Origin: Massilibacillus massiliensis
Lineage (GTDB): Bacteria > Bacillota > Negativicutes > FLKF01
Assembly: GCF_900086705.1 (NCBI RefSeq)
Contig: NZ_LT575483.1
Coordinates: 3,105,516-3,169,515, forward strand
Length of the DNA: 64,000 bases
Reading direction: 5' to 3'
The translations under genes and the position numbers were made by a program. Below the pieces are notes generated by a model that was not told the DNA's origin, searched no databases, and worked only from the letters and a program-made list of their open reading frames with translations. Shown in pieces: positions 3,972-18,061 of this stretch; within the stretch, counting starts at the first letter, position 1, and each line of letters starts with the position of its first letter.

Positions 3972-4044
3972 TAGAAAATATAGGTCGTTCGTAACTAGAG
4001 CGTTAAAAGAACGAATTATAATTTAGATAGGGTTATCTGATCAT

Positions 4045-4095
4045 AGAGCATGTACAAAATTCGAGAATGACTTGAATTGTATATGCTCTATTTGT
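4045..4095 (+). terminator. Terminator after superoxide reductase gene
   Basis: A 13-bp stem (AGAGCATGTACAA with TTGTATATGCTCT) around a 19-nt loop, followed by a T-rich stretch. Confidence 0.7.
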
Positions 4096-4171
4096 TTATT
4101 TTTAGTACAGCTCACATATCTAAAATAGGTTTGGTAAAACTATAGATATCAACCGATTGGAGGAATGAAAA

Positions 4172-4399
4172 ATGAATGAGAAATATCAAGCAGCGGATGG
4201 CTTAGATTCATCAATGCCGGATAAACATGAGGTTGCTAAAGAGCTGGGAATACCACTCGATCAAGGCTATAATGGAGATTTGACGACCAAAGATGTGGGG
4301 CGAATTGGCGGTAGAATGGGCGGCAAGATTGGCGGACAAAAGGTAAGAAAGATGATCCAAGCAGCAGAAGCCGAGATGGCAAAAGAGGATATGCATTAG
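4172..4399 (+). CDS. Small acid-soluble spore protein, alpha/beta type
   Basis: 75-aa DNA-binding spore protein that coats and protects forespore DNA. It shows the alpha/beta SASP layout: the EVAKELGIPL block containing the germination-protease recognition region, then TTKDVGRIGGRMGGKIGGQ and the helix KVRKMIQAAEAEMA. It has one extra GG repeat (MGGKIGG) compared with the paralogue at 14295. Start supported by TTGGAGG ten bases upstream. Expected to be sigma-G dependent; I did not identify the promoter. Confidence 0.88.
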   Translation: MNEKYQAADGLDSSMPDKHEVAKELGIPLDQGYNGDLTTKDVGRIGGRMGGKIGGQKVRKMIQAAEAEMAKEDMH

Positions 4400-4441
4400 A
4401 ATTTGGATGCGGTTTACTTTGTTTGATACGTTCATTATAAA

Positions 4442-4502
4442 AACTAGGGCATGTGCATGATGCAAGAACAACTTGGAATGCGCATACTCTAGTTTTTTTT
4501 TT
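4442..4502 (+). terminator. Terminator after spore protein gene
   Basis: A 17-bp imperfect stem beginning AACTAGGGCATGTGCAT, a loop of about 18 nt, then a run of nine T. Confidence 0.75.
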
Positions 4503-4834: not shown

Positions 4835-4943
4835 AAATATTCAGTTTTAGTTTTTAAAATAAGAATTCAAAAAATTCACAAAATAAATCGGTTTATATCT
4901 TCGAGTGTTTATGATCAGCAAAAGAACATGGAGGTATTTTTAT

Positions 4944-7046
4944 ATGAGTCTAAAAACTACGCAAAAGACAGATAGTCATTTAAGTGCAGATTTAGGGTTA
5001 GTTACCGCATTATCATTGGTTGTAGGTATGGTTTTAGGCGCTGGGGCATTTATGAAGCCTCCTGCTGTACTTGCAGTGACAGGCGATACAAATTTAGCGT
5101 TGGCGGCTTGGGCTGTTGGTGGTTTATTGTCAATGGCTGGTGGTTTATCTTTATGTGAATTGGGTGTTTTGTTTCCTCGGACGGGCGGTGTTTTTGTTTA
5201 TTTGGAAGAATTGTACGGAGCTAAGGTTGCGTTTTTATTTGGCTGGATGTTAAGTATTATTTTTGGACCAGCACTTGTAGGCGCATTAACCGGATATTTT
5301 AGCTCGGTTTTTTGTTTGTTATTTAATGTTTCCACGCAGTATGCACCAGTTGTTGGTGCTGGAGCACTGGGATTTATTGCTTTCGTAAATTCAATTAATG
5401 TGAAAGCATCTGGATATTTGCAGACAACGGCTACTTTTTGTAAGCTACTTCCTGTTTTATTATTAATAACTTTTGGATTGCTTAAAGGAAATGGGCAGGT
5501 CGCGTTATTCAGTTCTGCTGCATCAGGAGTAGCTGCGACAGCACCATTTTCCGTTGCAGTATTAGCTACCTTGTTCGCTTATGATGGCTGGGCGCAGGTC
5601 GCATCCGTTGCTGGAGAAATGAAGAACCCTGGGAAAGTACTGCCTAGAGCCATTATTGGCGGATTAACCTTTTTACTCATTGTATATTTAAGTATCAATA
5701 CAGCCTTCTTCAAAATTTTTGGGGTTGAGCAGATGATCGCATTAGGGCATGATGCTTCTGCCGTAGCTGCACAGCAGATGTTTGGTGTTTTTGGCGGCAA
5801 CTTGATTGCTGTAGGCATCATGGTTTCTATTTTGGGTGGGCTCAATGGTTATATCATGACGATCTCCCGTAATATTTATGTAATGGGAGAACGGGGTCTG
5901 GTTTTGGGATCAGGTTTTTTACGCAAAATTGATGCGGATAGCAAGGCACCGGTAAATGCGATGCTTGTGCTGGTTTTCTGCTCGTTCATTTATTATCGGA
6001 TGCTGGATGCGGATAAGCTTTCAGATATTGCGATGTTTTCAATTTGGATTTTTTATTTATTAACCTTTTTGGGTGTGTTTATTGCGCGTAAAAAATTTCC
6101 CGATGCACCGCGTTCTTATAAAGTGCCGCTGTATCCTATCACTCCATTGATTGCCTCGGCTGGAGCTGTTTATGTAATCTATGGTATGTTGAGTGCACAT
6201 TTTTGGAATGGGATCATCTCGATTGTTTTAACTTTATCTGGTTTACCGATGTATTATTATTTAAAAAATAAAAATAGAGCGAGTTCGTTTTTGGAAAAAT
6301 GGAAAACTTGTTATATTGTCGGTGCAAGTGTGATCTGTATATTGGGATTGCTGACGGTGTCAACTCGATTTATTGATACGCGGGAAGAATTGCGTGTTGC
6401 AGTAGATCCTACGTTTGCTCCGTTTGCTTATGAAGAAAATAGCGGACGGATGGCGGGCTTCGATATTGAGCTTATGAACAAATTGGCAGATAAGGTGGGC
6501 GTTAAGGTAACTTATCAAGTTACGCCATTCAATAATATTTTTAATACGATGCGGAATGGATATGCTGATTTGGCTATATCTTCTTTAACGATTACGCCGG
6601 AGCGCAAAGAGGATGTTATTTTTACGAATCCATACATAGAGAAAAGTGGATTTGGTTTGTTGGTAAAAAAAGAATCCAATCTGCATAATATCCAAGATTT
6701 AAGAGGCAAGACGGTTGGTGTACAGCGCGGTTCAACAAGTGAAATTTTTGTGCAGCGATATCATAATTTCAAAGTACAATTTTTCAATTCCAATATCGAT
6801 ATGAGTACTGCTTTTAATCAAGGGCAAATCGATGCGATCATTTTTGATCGGTTGATATTAGAACATTTTATGGCGAAGGGGATCATTGAGGATGGTGCTA
6901 TCGTAGAAATGCTCAATCAGGAAGATTATGCGATTGCTTTGACGAAAAAGTATAAATCAATCGGGGACAAGATGAATGAAGCTTTGGAAGAAATGAAGAA
7001 AAACGGGGAATTGGATGCTTTATATCAAAAATGGATAGAAGGATAA
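4944..7046 (+). CDS. Amino-acid permease (APC) fused to solute-binding domain
   Basis: A 700-aa two-domain membrane protein. Residues about 10-445 form an APC-superfamily amino-acid transporter with about 12 membrane segments, starting with the unwound-helix signature VVGMVLGAGAFMKP. After a further membrane span near 450-475, residues about 480-700 form a family-3 periplasmic solute-binding domain: LRVAVDPTFAPFAYEE, GFDIELMNKLADKVGV, AISSLTITPERKEDVIFTNPY, GKTVGVQRGSTSEIFV, and the closing LDALYQKWIEG. The binding domain would be tethered on the outer face of the inner membrane. Start chosen at ATG 4944 behind GGAGG at 4930-4934; an upstream ATG at 4905 has no ribosome site. Substrate unknown; the binding domain type suggests polar amino acids. 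Confidence 0.9.
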   Translation: MSLKTTQKTDSHLSADLGLVTALSLVVGMVLGAGAFMKPPAVLAVTGDTNLALAAWAVGGLLSMAGGLSLCELGVLFPRTGGVFVYLEELYGAKVAFLFGWMLSIIFGPALVGALTGYFSSVFCLLFNVSTQYAPVVGAGALGFIAFVNSINVKASGYLQTTATFCKLLPVLLLITFGLLKGNGQVALFSSAASGVAATAPFSVAVLATLFAYDGWAQVASVAGEMKNPGKVLPRAIIGGLTFLLIVYLSINTAFFKIFGVEQMIALGHDASAVAAQQMFGVFGGNLIAVGIMVSILGGLNGYIMTISRNIYVMGERGLVLGSGFLRKIDADSKAPVNAMLVLVFCSFIYYRMLDADKLSDIAMFSIWIFYLLTFLGVFIARKKFPDAPRSYKVPLYPITPLIASAGAVYVIYGMLSAHFWNGIISIVLTLSGLPMYYYLKNKNRASSFLEKWKTCYIVGASVICILGLLTVSTRFIDTREELRVAVDPTFAPFAYEENSGRMAGFDIELMNKLADKVGVKVTYQVTPFNNIFNTMRNGYADLAISSLTITPERKEDVIFTNPYIEKSGFGLLVKKESNLHNIQDLRGKTVGVQRGSTSEIFVQRYHNFKVQFFNSNIDMSTAFNQGQIDAIIFDRLILEHFMAKGIIEDGAIVEMLNQEDYAIALTKKYKSIGDKMNEALEEMKKNGELDALYQKWIEG

Positions 7047-14513: not shown

Positions 14514-14649
14514 ATGACCAAAATCTGTTTTGCCTATAGATCATAAAAGTTGTATGCTATTTGTGGAACATGTAAAGAGATCTTCGAGAATCTGGATAGC
14601 ATGATGGAATGAGAGCCGAGAATACGCTGCGGTTTAATCATGAAATAGA

Positions 14650-14698
14650 ATAAAGCCTATATCATGCGTGTCGTTTGCAGGATATAGGCTTTATTTAT
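14650..14698. terminator. Bidirectional terminator, spore protein / HD-GYP
   Basis: AAAGCCTATATC / GGATATAGGCTTT stem with T-rich sequence on the plus side and A-rich (T on the minus strand) on the other, between convergent genes. Confidence 0.8.
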
Positions 14699-14701
14699 AT
14701 A

Positions 14702-15577
14702 TTATTTAAAAAGATTTATAAATGTATCGACAATTTGTGGATTGAAGTCCTTTCCGCTGGAAAATTTAATTCGCTCTACAGCTTCTTTAGGAGGTCGAAC
14801 ATTACTTTGATAAATAGATGTAGTTAAATAATCAAAAGTATCGCAAATATTTATAATGGAAGCATTTTTGGTTATTTCATTTTCTTTTAAACCTGCAGGA
14901 TAGCCTCTGCCATCAAACTTTTCATGATGCTGTAAGATTGGAATATAAATTTCTTTTGGCAATTTATCTCCTTTTAGAAGATCAGATCCTAGTCGAGGAT
15001 GTTGTCGATATAAAAGCTCCTGCTGATCATCAATTCTAGAAACCGATTTTAAAATTTCCGGTGGAAGCAATATTGCACCTATATCATGAAATAAAGCAGC
15101 AATAGATAAATCTTGCAATTGTTGTTGATCGTAGTTAAGAAGACTCCCAAAGCTTAATGATAAGATTGCGACGTTAATCGAATGAGAAAGCGTCATGTTA
15201 TTTGATGATAAGGTTTTTAAAGAATTACTAAAAAAATTATCTTTTCGAATGGTAGATAACGTATTTTGTAAATAATCTGAAGCTGCTGAAACAATTTCTG
15301 ATTTTAAAGAATCAAATTTCGGATCGAGTGTGTCCGGAACTTTAAAAATATTTTTCTGATTTTTAAATAATTTTTTTGCGGATAGTTTCGGTGGAAGTAA
15401 AACGGCACTTTTCTTTTTTTCTACGGGAGTATACTCACAGCAAATGTGGAGACCTTCAAGTTTTTCTTTTAATAAAACATTAAGGGGCATGCCTTTAGTT
15501 AATAGAACACGTCCAAATTTGTCAGTGGCATTTTTCGTTAAATAGCCAATAATATCAATTTCTTTTTCTAGTTTCAT
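14702..15577 (-). CDS. HD-GYP domain protein, likely cyclic-di-GMP phosphodiesterase
   Basis: 291-aa cytoplasmic protein. N-terminal residues about 1-60 form a small domain (DIIGYLTKNATDKFGRVLLT) like that of the other HD-GYP protein. The catalytic domain has LSHSINVAILS, ALFHDIGAILLPPEIL, ILQHHEKFDGRGYPAGL and NICDTFDYLT. The catalytic His/Asp and GYP residues are intact. The ribosome site GGAGG lies 9 nt before the ATG. Only about 103 bp separate its start from the left inverted repeat of the recombinase segment, so its promoter region may be affected by inversion. Confidence 0.88.
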   Translation of the reverse strand: MKLEKEIDIIGYLTKNATDKFGRVLLTKGMPLNVLLKEKLEGLHICCEYTPVEKKKSAVLLPPKLSAKKLFKNQKNIFKVPDTLDPKFDSLKSEIVSAASDYLQNTLSTIRKDNFFSNSLKTLSSNNMTLSHSINVAILSLSFGSLLNYDQQQLQDLSIAALFHDIGAILLPPEILKSVSRIDDQQELLYRQHPRLGSDLLKGDKLPKEIYIPILQHHEKFDGRGYPAGLKENEITKNASIINICDTFDYLTTSIYQSNVRPPKEAVERIKFSSGKDFNPQIVDTFINLFK

Positions 15578-15680: not shown

Positions 15681-15710
15681 GTAACAAAATCTTATTATGT
15701 TACTTGCTAT
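15681..15710. repeat. Left inverted repeat of putative invertible segment
   Basis: A 30-bp sequence whose exact reverse complement occurs at 16356-16385 (31 bp if the next inner base is counted). Inside it, GTAACA and TGTTAC face each other across an 11-bp spacer, the layout of a tyrosine-recombinase core site. Confidence 0.92.
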
Positions 15711-16355
15711 TTGTATGTAAAGTATCATATTATAGAAAAAACAAGTGATAGGATGCTGTAATTGGTGATAAAGAATGAACAATGTTGAACCGATTCGAGA
15801 AAGAACAAAAATAGTAGAAATTAAAGCATATTTAAGAAAAAATAATTTACGCGATTTTCTATTATTTGTTTTAGGGATTAATAGTGGCTTAAGAATTTCA
15901 GATTTATTATGCTTGAAAATAGAGGATGTGATGAATAAGGATAGGATCATTTTAAAAGAAAAAAAGACTGGAAAGACAAAAGATTTCCCCATATCAAAAA
16001 ACTGCAAGAATGCTATTAATGACTACTTACTGCAAAGCATGAGGAAAAGCGGCTGGCTCTTTGTCAGCAGAAGAGGGAACAATCCGATCAGTCGTATACA
16101 AGCCTATAGAATTATCAATCGTGCGGCACGGCAAGTAGGAATAACAGAAGCGATCGGAACACATACTTTACGTAAAACGTTTGGCTATTGGGCCTATAAA
16201 ACTGGAACGGATGTAACGCGGATACAAAAACTATTAAATCACTCATCACCGGAAATTACATTGGCGTACATAGGGATTACAAAAGATGAGCTTGATGATG
16301 TTTACATTAATTTAAATTTATGAAAATTGCGATTTTTATGAAGAACTATAGTATA
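15711..16355. other. Putative invertible DNA segment with its own recombinase
   Basis: Segment of about 645 bp between perfect inverted repeats, filled almost entirely by one tyrosine-recombinase gene. A possible recombinase promoter has its -35 (TTGCTA, 15704-15709) in the left repeat and its -10 (TATTAT, 15728-15733) inside the segment. A TATAAT at 16352-16357 sits just past the recombinase stop and points outward through the right repeat. Inversion would turn this outward signal from the DUF3748 gene toward the HD-GYP gene. Confidence 0.65.
15775..16323 (+). CDS. Small tyrosine recombinase (FimB/FimE-size DNA invertase type)
   Basis: 182 aa, a catalytic domain with almost no N-terminal core-binding domain, like FimB/FimE and unlike 300-aa XerC/D. 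Catalytic residues visible: Arg in NSGLRISDLL, Lys in the beta-hairpin (KKTGKTKDF), His-x-x-Arg in THTLRKTFG, the second His in LLNHSSPEITLAYIG, and the nucleophile Tyr in the same block. It sits inside perfect inverted repeats. Likely role: inverting that segment. Alternative: a minimal mobile element moved by this enzyme. Confidence 0.92.
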   Translation: MNNVEPIRERTKIVEIKAYLRKNNLRDFLLFVLGINSGLRISDLLCLKIEDVMNKDRIILKEKKTGKTKDFPISKNCKNAINDYLLQSMRKSGWLFVSRRGNNPISRIQAYRIINRAARQVGITEAIGTHTLRKTFGYWAYKTGTDVTRIQKLLNHSSPEITLAYIGITKDELDDVYINLNL

Positions 16356-16385
16356 ATAGCAAGTAACATAATAAGATTTTGTTAC
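16356..16385. repeat. Right inverted repeat of putative invertible segment
   Basis: Exact reverse complement of 15681-15710. Flanking bases outside the two repeats show no direct duplication (left gaat, right tttt), which argues against a simple transposon with a target-site duplication. Confidence 0.92.
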
Positions 16386-16651: not shown

Positions 16652-18061
16652 ATGAAAAAATTTAAAAAGTTGGTTTACTCAATTTGTTCTAATTTACTTG
16701 CGTTAACTGCATTTGGTGGATGTGGAACAACTATGGTAAATACACAATCTTTGAGAGGTAAAGAAGTACAGCTTACGAAAAGTCCCAATGGACATCAGCT
16801 TGTAAATAAAAATATTTTTTCTCCGGATAGCAGTTGGATCGTATATGATGTACGTTCACAAGATCATATTTTTGACAGTGAATGTATTGAAAAGGTTAAT
16901 ATTCATACGAAAGAGCGTGTTGTTTTATACAAGGCTTCGAATCAGGCAAAAGTTGGGGTTGCCAGTTACCATCCGTTTGAAAATAAAGTCGCCTTTATCC
17001 ATGGTCCGGAATTTCCAACGGAGGAATATTCGTATAGTGCGGTTCATCGTTATGGAGCTATGGTTGACGAGAAAAACCTTATGCATGCTGAAAACATTGA
17101 TGCGCGTGATGTGACGATACCATTTACACCGGGCGCACTGCGCGGTGGGACGCATGTTCATATTTGGCATTCAGATAGCAGTATGATGAGCTATACATAT
17201 GAAGATGAAATTTTAGCCGATGTAATGCAAGAATCAGCTGAGCAGGATATGAATATTCGTAATGTAGGTGTTACGGTTTTTAACAAGCACATAGCCGTTC
17301 ATCCCGGGAAAAGAAATTTTGACGGTTATTTCAGCGTACTTGTGACAAAAACGAATGCCAACGCGCAGCCGGATTCAGATGATATTGTGAAAGCCCTGGA
17401 AGAGGGGTGGATCGGGAAAAATGGGTACGTAAAAAAAGATGGAAACAGGCAGAAGAAAGCATTGGCTTTTCAAGGGTTTGTTATTGGGAAAGATGGAATG
17501 CAAGTTCCTGAAGTATATCGGGTAGATTTGCCGGATGATCTCACGATCTCTGGAGATTCAGGACCGATTCAAGGTACTGTGTCAAAGCGTCCACAGCCGC
17601 CGGAAGGCGTTGTGCAGACGAGACTTACTTTTACAACGGATCGTAAGTATCCAGGTATTCAAGGGCCTCGCCACTGGCTTAGGACAAATCCAGACGGATC
17701 AAAAATTGCTTATATGGCAAAAGATGATCAAGGGGTCGTGCAGATTTGGACCGTGCCAACGACTGGGGGGACGCCCGCGCAGGTAACGCATCATCCGTTT
17801 TCTATTCAGACCGGTTTTTCTTGGAGTCCGGATGGTGAATATTTTGCCTATGGTGCAGACAACAGCCTTTTTGTAACGAGCATTTCTGATGGGATATCTA
17901 CGCGGTTGACGACGAGGGCAAATGATCATGAGGCTATTTTACCTTATTGTGTGAGTTATTCTCCGGATGGAAAAAATATTGCTTACTTAAAAAATGTACG
18001 TTGTGGTGCTGATGCTAAAGAGTCTTATTCCCAAATCTTTTGTTTTCAATTTGAAAAGTAG
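16652..18061 (+). CDS. DUF3748 (YidR-like) beta-propeller protein, probable lipoprotein
   Basis: 469 aa. The N-terminal signal ends in a lipobox-like FGGC (Cys near residue 24), so it is probably a lipoprotein; Phe at -3 is unusual. The body resembles E. coli YidR/DUF3748 with PD40/TolB-like blades: NIFSPDSSWIVYDVR, LRTNPDGSKIAYMAKDD, FSWSPDGEYFAYGADN and VSYSPDGKNIAYLKN. Function of the family is unknown; such propellers usually bind proteins or glycans. The ribosome site GAAGGAG precedes the ATG. It lies beside the invertible segment. Confidence 0.8.
   Translation: MKKFKKLVYSICSNLLALTAFGGCGTTMVNTQSLRGKEVQLTKSPNGHQLVNKNIFSPDSSWIVYDVRSQDHIFDSECIEKVNIHTKERVVLYKASNQAKVGVASYHPFENKVAFIHGPEFPTEEYSYSAVHRYGAMVDEKNLMHAENIDARDVTIPFTPGALRGGTHVHIWHSDSSMMSYTYEDEILADVMQESAEQDMNIRNVGVTVFNKHIAVHPGKRNFDGYFSVLVTKTNANAQPDSDDIVKALEEGWIGKNGYVKKDGNRQKKALAFQGFVIGKDGMQVPEVYRVDLPDDLTISGDSGPIQGTVSKRPQPPEGVVQTRLTFTTDRKYPGIQGPRHWLRTNPDGSKIAYMAKDDQGVVQIWTVPTTGGTPAQVTHHPFSIQTGFSWSPDGEYFAYGADNSLFVTSISDGISTRLTTRANDHEAILPYCVSYSPDGKNIAYLKNVRCGADAKESYSQIFCFQFEK

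Follow-up and report, generated by a model that had tools for sequence, protein, structure and literature searches.

A probable self-contained DNA-inversion switch beside an HD-GYP gene of Massilibacillus massiliensis and related units in the Negativicutes

Features of the locus

The window analyzed here is a stretch of 64,000 nucleotides from Massilibacillus massiliensis. It contains an element of approximately 0.7 kb, located between a gene for an HD-GYP c-di-GMP phosphodiesterase and a gene for a DUF3748 protein, in which a recombinase gene is the sole gene between the two arms. The features of the locus are listed below.

14649-14695, minus strand: inverted repeat after the HD-GYP gene, arms 95% complementary; probable terminator
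14702-15577, minus strand: HD-GYP c-di-GMP phosphodiesterase gene (Pfam HD_5, E 3e-26; HHEKFDGRGYP in the translation)
15681-15711, plus strand: left inverted repeat, 31 bp, perfect; holds the 23-bp recombination site GTAACAAAATCTTATTATGTTAC at 15681-15703
15694-15721, minus strand: alternative promoter-like sequence TTTACA-16-CATAAT, reading outward from the left arm to the HD-GYP gene (10 of 12 matches)
15704-15733, plus strand: TTGCTA-18-TATTAT, probable (predicted) recombinase promoter
15722-15734, plus strand: half-site-like GTATCATATTATA, overlapping the -10 of the probable recombinase promoter
15775-16323, plus strand: gene for the 182-aa tyrosine recombinase (invertase; Pfam Phage_integrase, E 1.8e-29)
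16352-16357, plus strand: TATAAT in the right arm, candidate outward -10; the best -35, TTGCGA at 19 bp, is off spacing
16355-16385, minus strand: right inverted repeat, 31 bp, perfect; 23-bp recombination site at 16363-16385
16652-18061, plus strand: gene for a DUF3748/beta-propeller protein (Pfam DUF3748, E 3.4e-36)

The inverted repeats at the ends of the element are perfect, as described in an earlier note on this DNA, and their length is 31 bp rather than the 30 bp given there. The enclosure of a single gene, for a 182-aa tyrosine recombinase, was borne out by Pfam (Phage_integrase), which also agrees with the HD-GYP and DUF3748 assignments of the flanking genes. The pattern GTAACA-N11-TGTTAC was recovered in each repeat at 15681-15703 and 16363-16385, and the TATAAT placed at the right inner edge is present at 16352-16357. 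Of the three matches to GTAACA-N11-TGTTAC in the 4.0-Mb genome, two are the pair at this element, so the pair is not a product of chance. The central bases of the left and right sites are the same. No second copy of the unit was found elsewhere in its own genome, and the near-identical copies that mark an insertion sequence or transposon are thus absent there. When sites for action in trans were sought in this genome with up to three mismatches, 71 matches were obtained against 74 for the reversed control, which is no excess.

The residues of a tyrosine recombinase were located by inspection of the translation: R (SGLRISD), K (KTGK), HxxR (HTLR), H (LNHSS), and Y (AYIG). This R-K-HxxR-H-Y set, together with the catalytic domain, places the protein in the tyrosine recombinase superfamily PF00589. 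Its Pfam domain is Phage_integrase, and the serine recombinase catalytic domain of Hin-type enzymes was not found. The proposed kinship with FimB/FimE does not extend beyond size (about 180-200 aa) and the catalytic domain. The NCBIfam models for Fim-type invertases (NF007370 and NF007371) give 60-64 bits, below their cut-offs of 221-222, and are outscored on this protein by the XerA/XerD models. The window switch differs further from FimB/FimE in that it encloses its recombinase.

A gap of 104 bp separates the left site from the start of the HD-GYP gene, whose product contains an HD domain with the HHExxDGxGYP motif. On the right, the gap to the DUF3748 start is 267 bp and includes a weak terminator-like hairpin. 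No counterpart of the DUF3748 gene is found beside the switch in relatives, and it is probably a bystander; HD-GYP is most likely the target of the window switch. The right arm of the window copy does not contain the AGGA...CGTA/GAAT promoter motif of the relatives described below, and no -35 stands at a proper distance from its TATAAT. The left-arm match resembles a sigma-70 promoter at 10 of 12 positions, but the promoter scan overall gave values no higher than shuffled sequences. Because the family motif is missing from the right arm and the left-arm match faces HD-GYP, the ON direction of the window copy cannot be assigned confidently.

The earlier suggestion that flipping could alter expression of the recombinase itself was not upheld. 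The probable recombinase promoter lies inside the element and moves along with the gene, so that self-regulation by inversion is unlikely. The half-site-like motif over the -10 of this promoter is present in 16 of 24 left arms (shuffled mean 0.26), and its position is compatible with a possible autorepression by the recombinase.

Related recombinases, matched cores, and conserved neighbors

Family- and genus-level searches for relatives returned the host genome alone, and no second orientation of the window copy was seen in the single genome of the host family compared. When one genome per species was searched, relatives of the recombinase turned up mainly in the Negativicutes, and a match at E <= 1e-40 was obtained in 33 of the 380 genomes of the class-wide search. 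The window included, the unit is present at 25 loci in 24 Negativicutes genomes, where a recombinase gene lies between two 23-bp GTAAC...GTTAC sites that are inverted relative to each other and some 40-165 bp away from it. Three of these loci are cut by contig ends, and 22 complete site pairs were compared. Positions 8-16 of the site are the same at both ends in all 22 pairs, and the mismatches within loci are confined to positions 7, 17, 19, and 22. Across loci, 13 different 8-bp cores (positions 9-16) appear. For a tyrosine recombinase to act, the binding arms of its sites must be conserved, whereas the region of strand exchange may have any sequence so long as both partners agree. The 23-bp sites look like recombination sites for this reason, the core being matched within a locus and different between loci. 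Cores matched within and mismatched between loci amount to a naturally occurring set of recombination sites that are probably orthogonal.

In a tree of the recombinases of the class, all 25 paired-site enzymes form one clade (support 98/94). The window recombinase is placed inside this clade on a long branch (0.62), and the sister groups of the clade have one site or none. Relatives were also found in viral contigs; the nearest sisters (best 65 and 62% identity), part of which are in such contigs, are without paired sites. Five sister recombinases (L117, L121, L123, L124, and L126) have a single 23-bp site approximately 164 bp upstream of the recombinase start with no partner nearby; such enzymes are possibly integrases of prophages or integrative elements. 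The M. massiliensis genome itself encodes a 62% identical paralog (L002; C6:166961-167518) near a gene that by eye resembles one for a GIY-YIG domain protein. The paralog was rejected for its lack of flanking sites; it is probably the recombinase of a prophage or island.

The nearest gene transcribed away from the switch encodes an HD-GYP protein at 12 of the 25 loci, a chemoreceptor (MCP) at 12, and a SigH-like sigma factor at one, where part of the neighbors were scanned for domains and the remaining members were assigned by sequence clustering. One of the 12 MCP targets sits behind what by eye is an IS110-type transposase. At several loci the gene order is HD-GYP, MCP, and CheW-like, the last recognized by inspection only. 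The HD-GYP genes often start 12-50 bp from the site, so the promoter is probably in or across the element. Only one side of the switch is a conserved target, and the gene on the other side is transcribed toward the element in most relatives. The same chromosomal locus is retained in five Pelosinus genomes.

The SigH-like gene adjoins the switch of G008 (L106, 4154-4741, minus strand). This element-borne sigma factor was examined as a dedicated factor for all of the promoters and rejected, as only some genomes of the class, a minority, encode a close homologue, while all have a more distant one of SigH type. Full-length paired-site units with broken recombinase frames adjoin MCP genes in G033 and G309 (L197 and L198), and these are possibly locked switches or sequencing errors.

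Inversion and outward promoters in relatives

Comparison of orientation among relatives, which the earlier note had recommended, revealed both orientations. The flanks of the element in Pelosinus fermentans JBW45 (L107) and Pelosinus G104 (L108) are collinear with identities of 93.5 and 93.9%, and the 0.83-kb element between them matches in reverse only, at 95.5%. The distinguishing base of the outer half-site remains with its flank. G104 is placed in Pelosinus by the genus code that it has in common with JBW45. In Pelosinus propionicus DSM 13327 (L169), the arm with the promoter motif is joined to an ABC-transporter flank and, in another contig piece, to an HD-GYP flank, and both orientations were thus present in the sequenced culture. 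The left arm in Sporomusa acidovorans Mol is joined to two different flanks. In Propionispira raffinosivorans the second junction is ambiguous, with 11 arm bases only. Both orientations, as expected of an inverton, are therefore represented by L107 versus L108, by the P. propionicus junctions, and by the small segment L168 versus L161/L164 described below.

Eight draft contig ends coincide with a site to within about 8 bp, compared with about 0.2 expected by chance according to a rough hand estimate from contig density. Contig ends at the sites are expected if reads branch there. Third sites in L095, L103, and L169 were considered as a shufflon and rejected, because the adjoining runs of N are scaffold joins of contigs in alternative orientations.

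An outward motif, AGGA(W) - about 13 - (C)GTA(T) or GAAT, is found in the arm downstream of the recombinase. The loose pattern matches 21 of 23 right arms, some 20 of them convincingly, versus 0 of 24 left arms, and the strict form occurs in 12 of 23 right arms against a shuffled mean of 0.58. We take the motif to resemble a SigH-type promoter, and it may be read by a SigH-type sigma factor. Judged by the direction of the motif, the target is OFF in most deposited assemblies and ON in three cis loci (L107, L098, and L113).

Further inverted site pairs, approximately 200-260 bp apart and with no recombinase between them, are clear in G023, G104, G035, G108, G039, G008, and G031; some other occurrences are lone halves at contig ends. 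Those with an assignable neighbor precede MCP or HD-GYP genes, and most contain the family promoter motif in one direction only (partly by inspection). The small segment L168 of P. propionicus is inverted relative to L161 and L164 of two other Pelosinus genomes. The shared site suggests that the recombinase probably acts on these pairs in trans. At L199 (G011:C2:328519-337006), a 465-bp inverted site pair at 4001-4488 precedes an MCP-HD-GYP operon and contains a decayed recombinase; this locus likely marks a transitional stage from the full element to the small promoter switches. The decayed or broken recombinases in G011, G033, and G309 suggest that the small promoters derive from full elements whose enzyme was lost, and that they rely on an intact copy. 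We lean, by a modest degree, toward a class-wide regulon in which one self-inverting tyrosine recombinase, autoregulated by way of a half-site in its own promoter, coordinately phase-varies chemoreceptor, CheW, and HD-GYP operons of the Negativicutes. Its small SigH-like invertible promoters, occupying as many as four or five loci in a genome, would have arisen from copies of the whole element minus the recombinase gene, of which L199 would be a relic.

Proposed mechanism, alternatives, and known systems

The architecture, the matched cores, the inversions in relatives, the conserved targets, and the promoter-like motif, as read from genome sequences, are best accommodated by a self-contained DNA-inversion switch with HD-GYP as the target of an outward promoter, a reading in which we have good confidence. 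The recombinase would bind the 23-bp site at each end, and strand exchange within the matched central positions would invert the segment together with the recombinase gene and its promoter. The outward promoter, located in the arm that follows the recombinase gene, would then face HD-GYP (ON) or away from it (OFF), and cells would vary in c-di-GMP breakdown as a result. In several relatives the same recombinase would also flip distant small promoter segments driving chemoreceptor and HD-GYP operons. For the window copy, activity and transcription are predicted by this mechanism, as is any effect on c-di-GMP. The switch most likely lets the bacteria turn genes for c-di-GMP breakdown or chemotaxis receptors on and off at random. 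The original proposal of such a switch next to a c-di-GMP phosphodiesterase gene is strengthened by the relatives, which share the architecture, show inversions, and nearly always have HD-GYP or chemoreceptor neighbors.

The note had further proposed a two-way switch in which the outward promoter serves DUF3748 and HD-GYP in turn. The TATAAT currently faces the DUF3748 side and the genes on both sides are transcribed away from the element, but the 267-bp gap with its hairpin separates DUF3748 from the right site, no other copy has this gene beside it, and the gene opposite the single conserved target mostly reads toward the element in relatives. Alternation between the two genes is accordingly improbable. 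A switch that operates in relatives and is locked or decayed in the window, with no regulatory effect on HD-GYP, is likewise unlikely. The right arm without the family motif, the long recombinase branch, the broken recombinases of G033 and G309, and the single window orientation seen would suit such a copy; the perfect 31-bp repeat, the intact frame, the catalytic residues, the matching core, and the half-site-like motif kept at the recombinase promoter argue against it. In its architecture, core match, gene integrity, and half-site-like motif, the window copy fits the switch family.

Terminal inverted repeats that enclose one recombinase could also belong to a small transposable element moving between loci, and the unit does adjoin different genes in different species; G316 has two elements, and G011 a decayed duplicate (L199). 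As a rule, however, a genome has one intact paired element and copies within a genome are diverged; the locus is constant in the five Pelosinus genomes, and inversions are observed in situ. The neighbor is always an HD-GYP, MCP, or sigma gene, and a core that varies by locus yet matches within each is not expected of IS ends, which leaves transposition very unlikely. An integrase of the phage or integrative-element type, with attachment sites and no switch, is highly improbable. The nearest sisters of the recombinase are partly in viral contigs and lack paired sites, some with one site about 140 bp upstream, but the paired-site recombinases form a separate clade with no evident mobile-element cargo, and their sites are inverted rather than direct and enclose the recombinase alone.

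The preferred DNA-inversion switch may be compared with known systems. The best-known cases of DNA inversion concern surface structures, and in the Hin system the recombinase gene is carried inside the invertible segment. In the Salmonella Hin/hixL-hixR flagellar switch, a segment flanked by inverted sites turns an outward promoter ON in one orientation (PMC9368917). The Negativicutes unit shares this layout of inverted sites around a recombinase gene plus a candidate outward promoter, and it differs in having a tyrosine rather than a serine recombinase, locus-specific cores, and HD-GYP or chemoreceptor targets. Clostridioides difficile has an invertible promoter before the c-di-GMP phosphodiesterase genes pdcB and pdcC (PMC9286219), a position upstream of a phosphodiesterase gene that is common to both systems. 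Those phosphodiesterases are of the EAL type, no recombinase is described inside the switch, and the pdcB recombinase was not identified in that study (PMC9286219). In Bacteroides fragilis, the recombinases Tsr19 (BF2766) and Mpi each flip several promoters, both local and distant (PMC4747536). Tsr19 is a tyrosine recombinase, and the local-plus-distant action of Tsr19 and Mpi parallels the trans action proposed here, whereas their genes are near rather than inside the flipped segment and their targets are polysaccharide and outer-membrane genes.

Literature searches on this system in Pelosinus, Sporomusa, or the Negativicutes, and on invertible promoters of chemoreceptors, returned nothing relevant from a body of literature that excluded most subscription papers. 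The recombinase family is widespread, with no published description found, and is linked almost without exception to c-di-GMP phosphodiesterases and chemoreceptors, so that populations would split into cells differing in signaling and taxis states. Several of the switches are in cultivable strains of Pelosinus, Propionispira, and Sporomusa, and hence are directly testable. In a Gastranaerophilales genome (Melainabacteria; L032), where the neighboring genes do not cluster with HD-GYP or MCP genes, the same design is found with a 24-bp site at 4905-4928 and 5650-5673.
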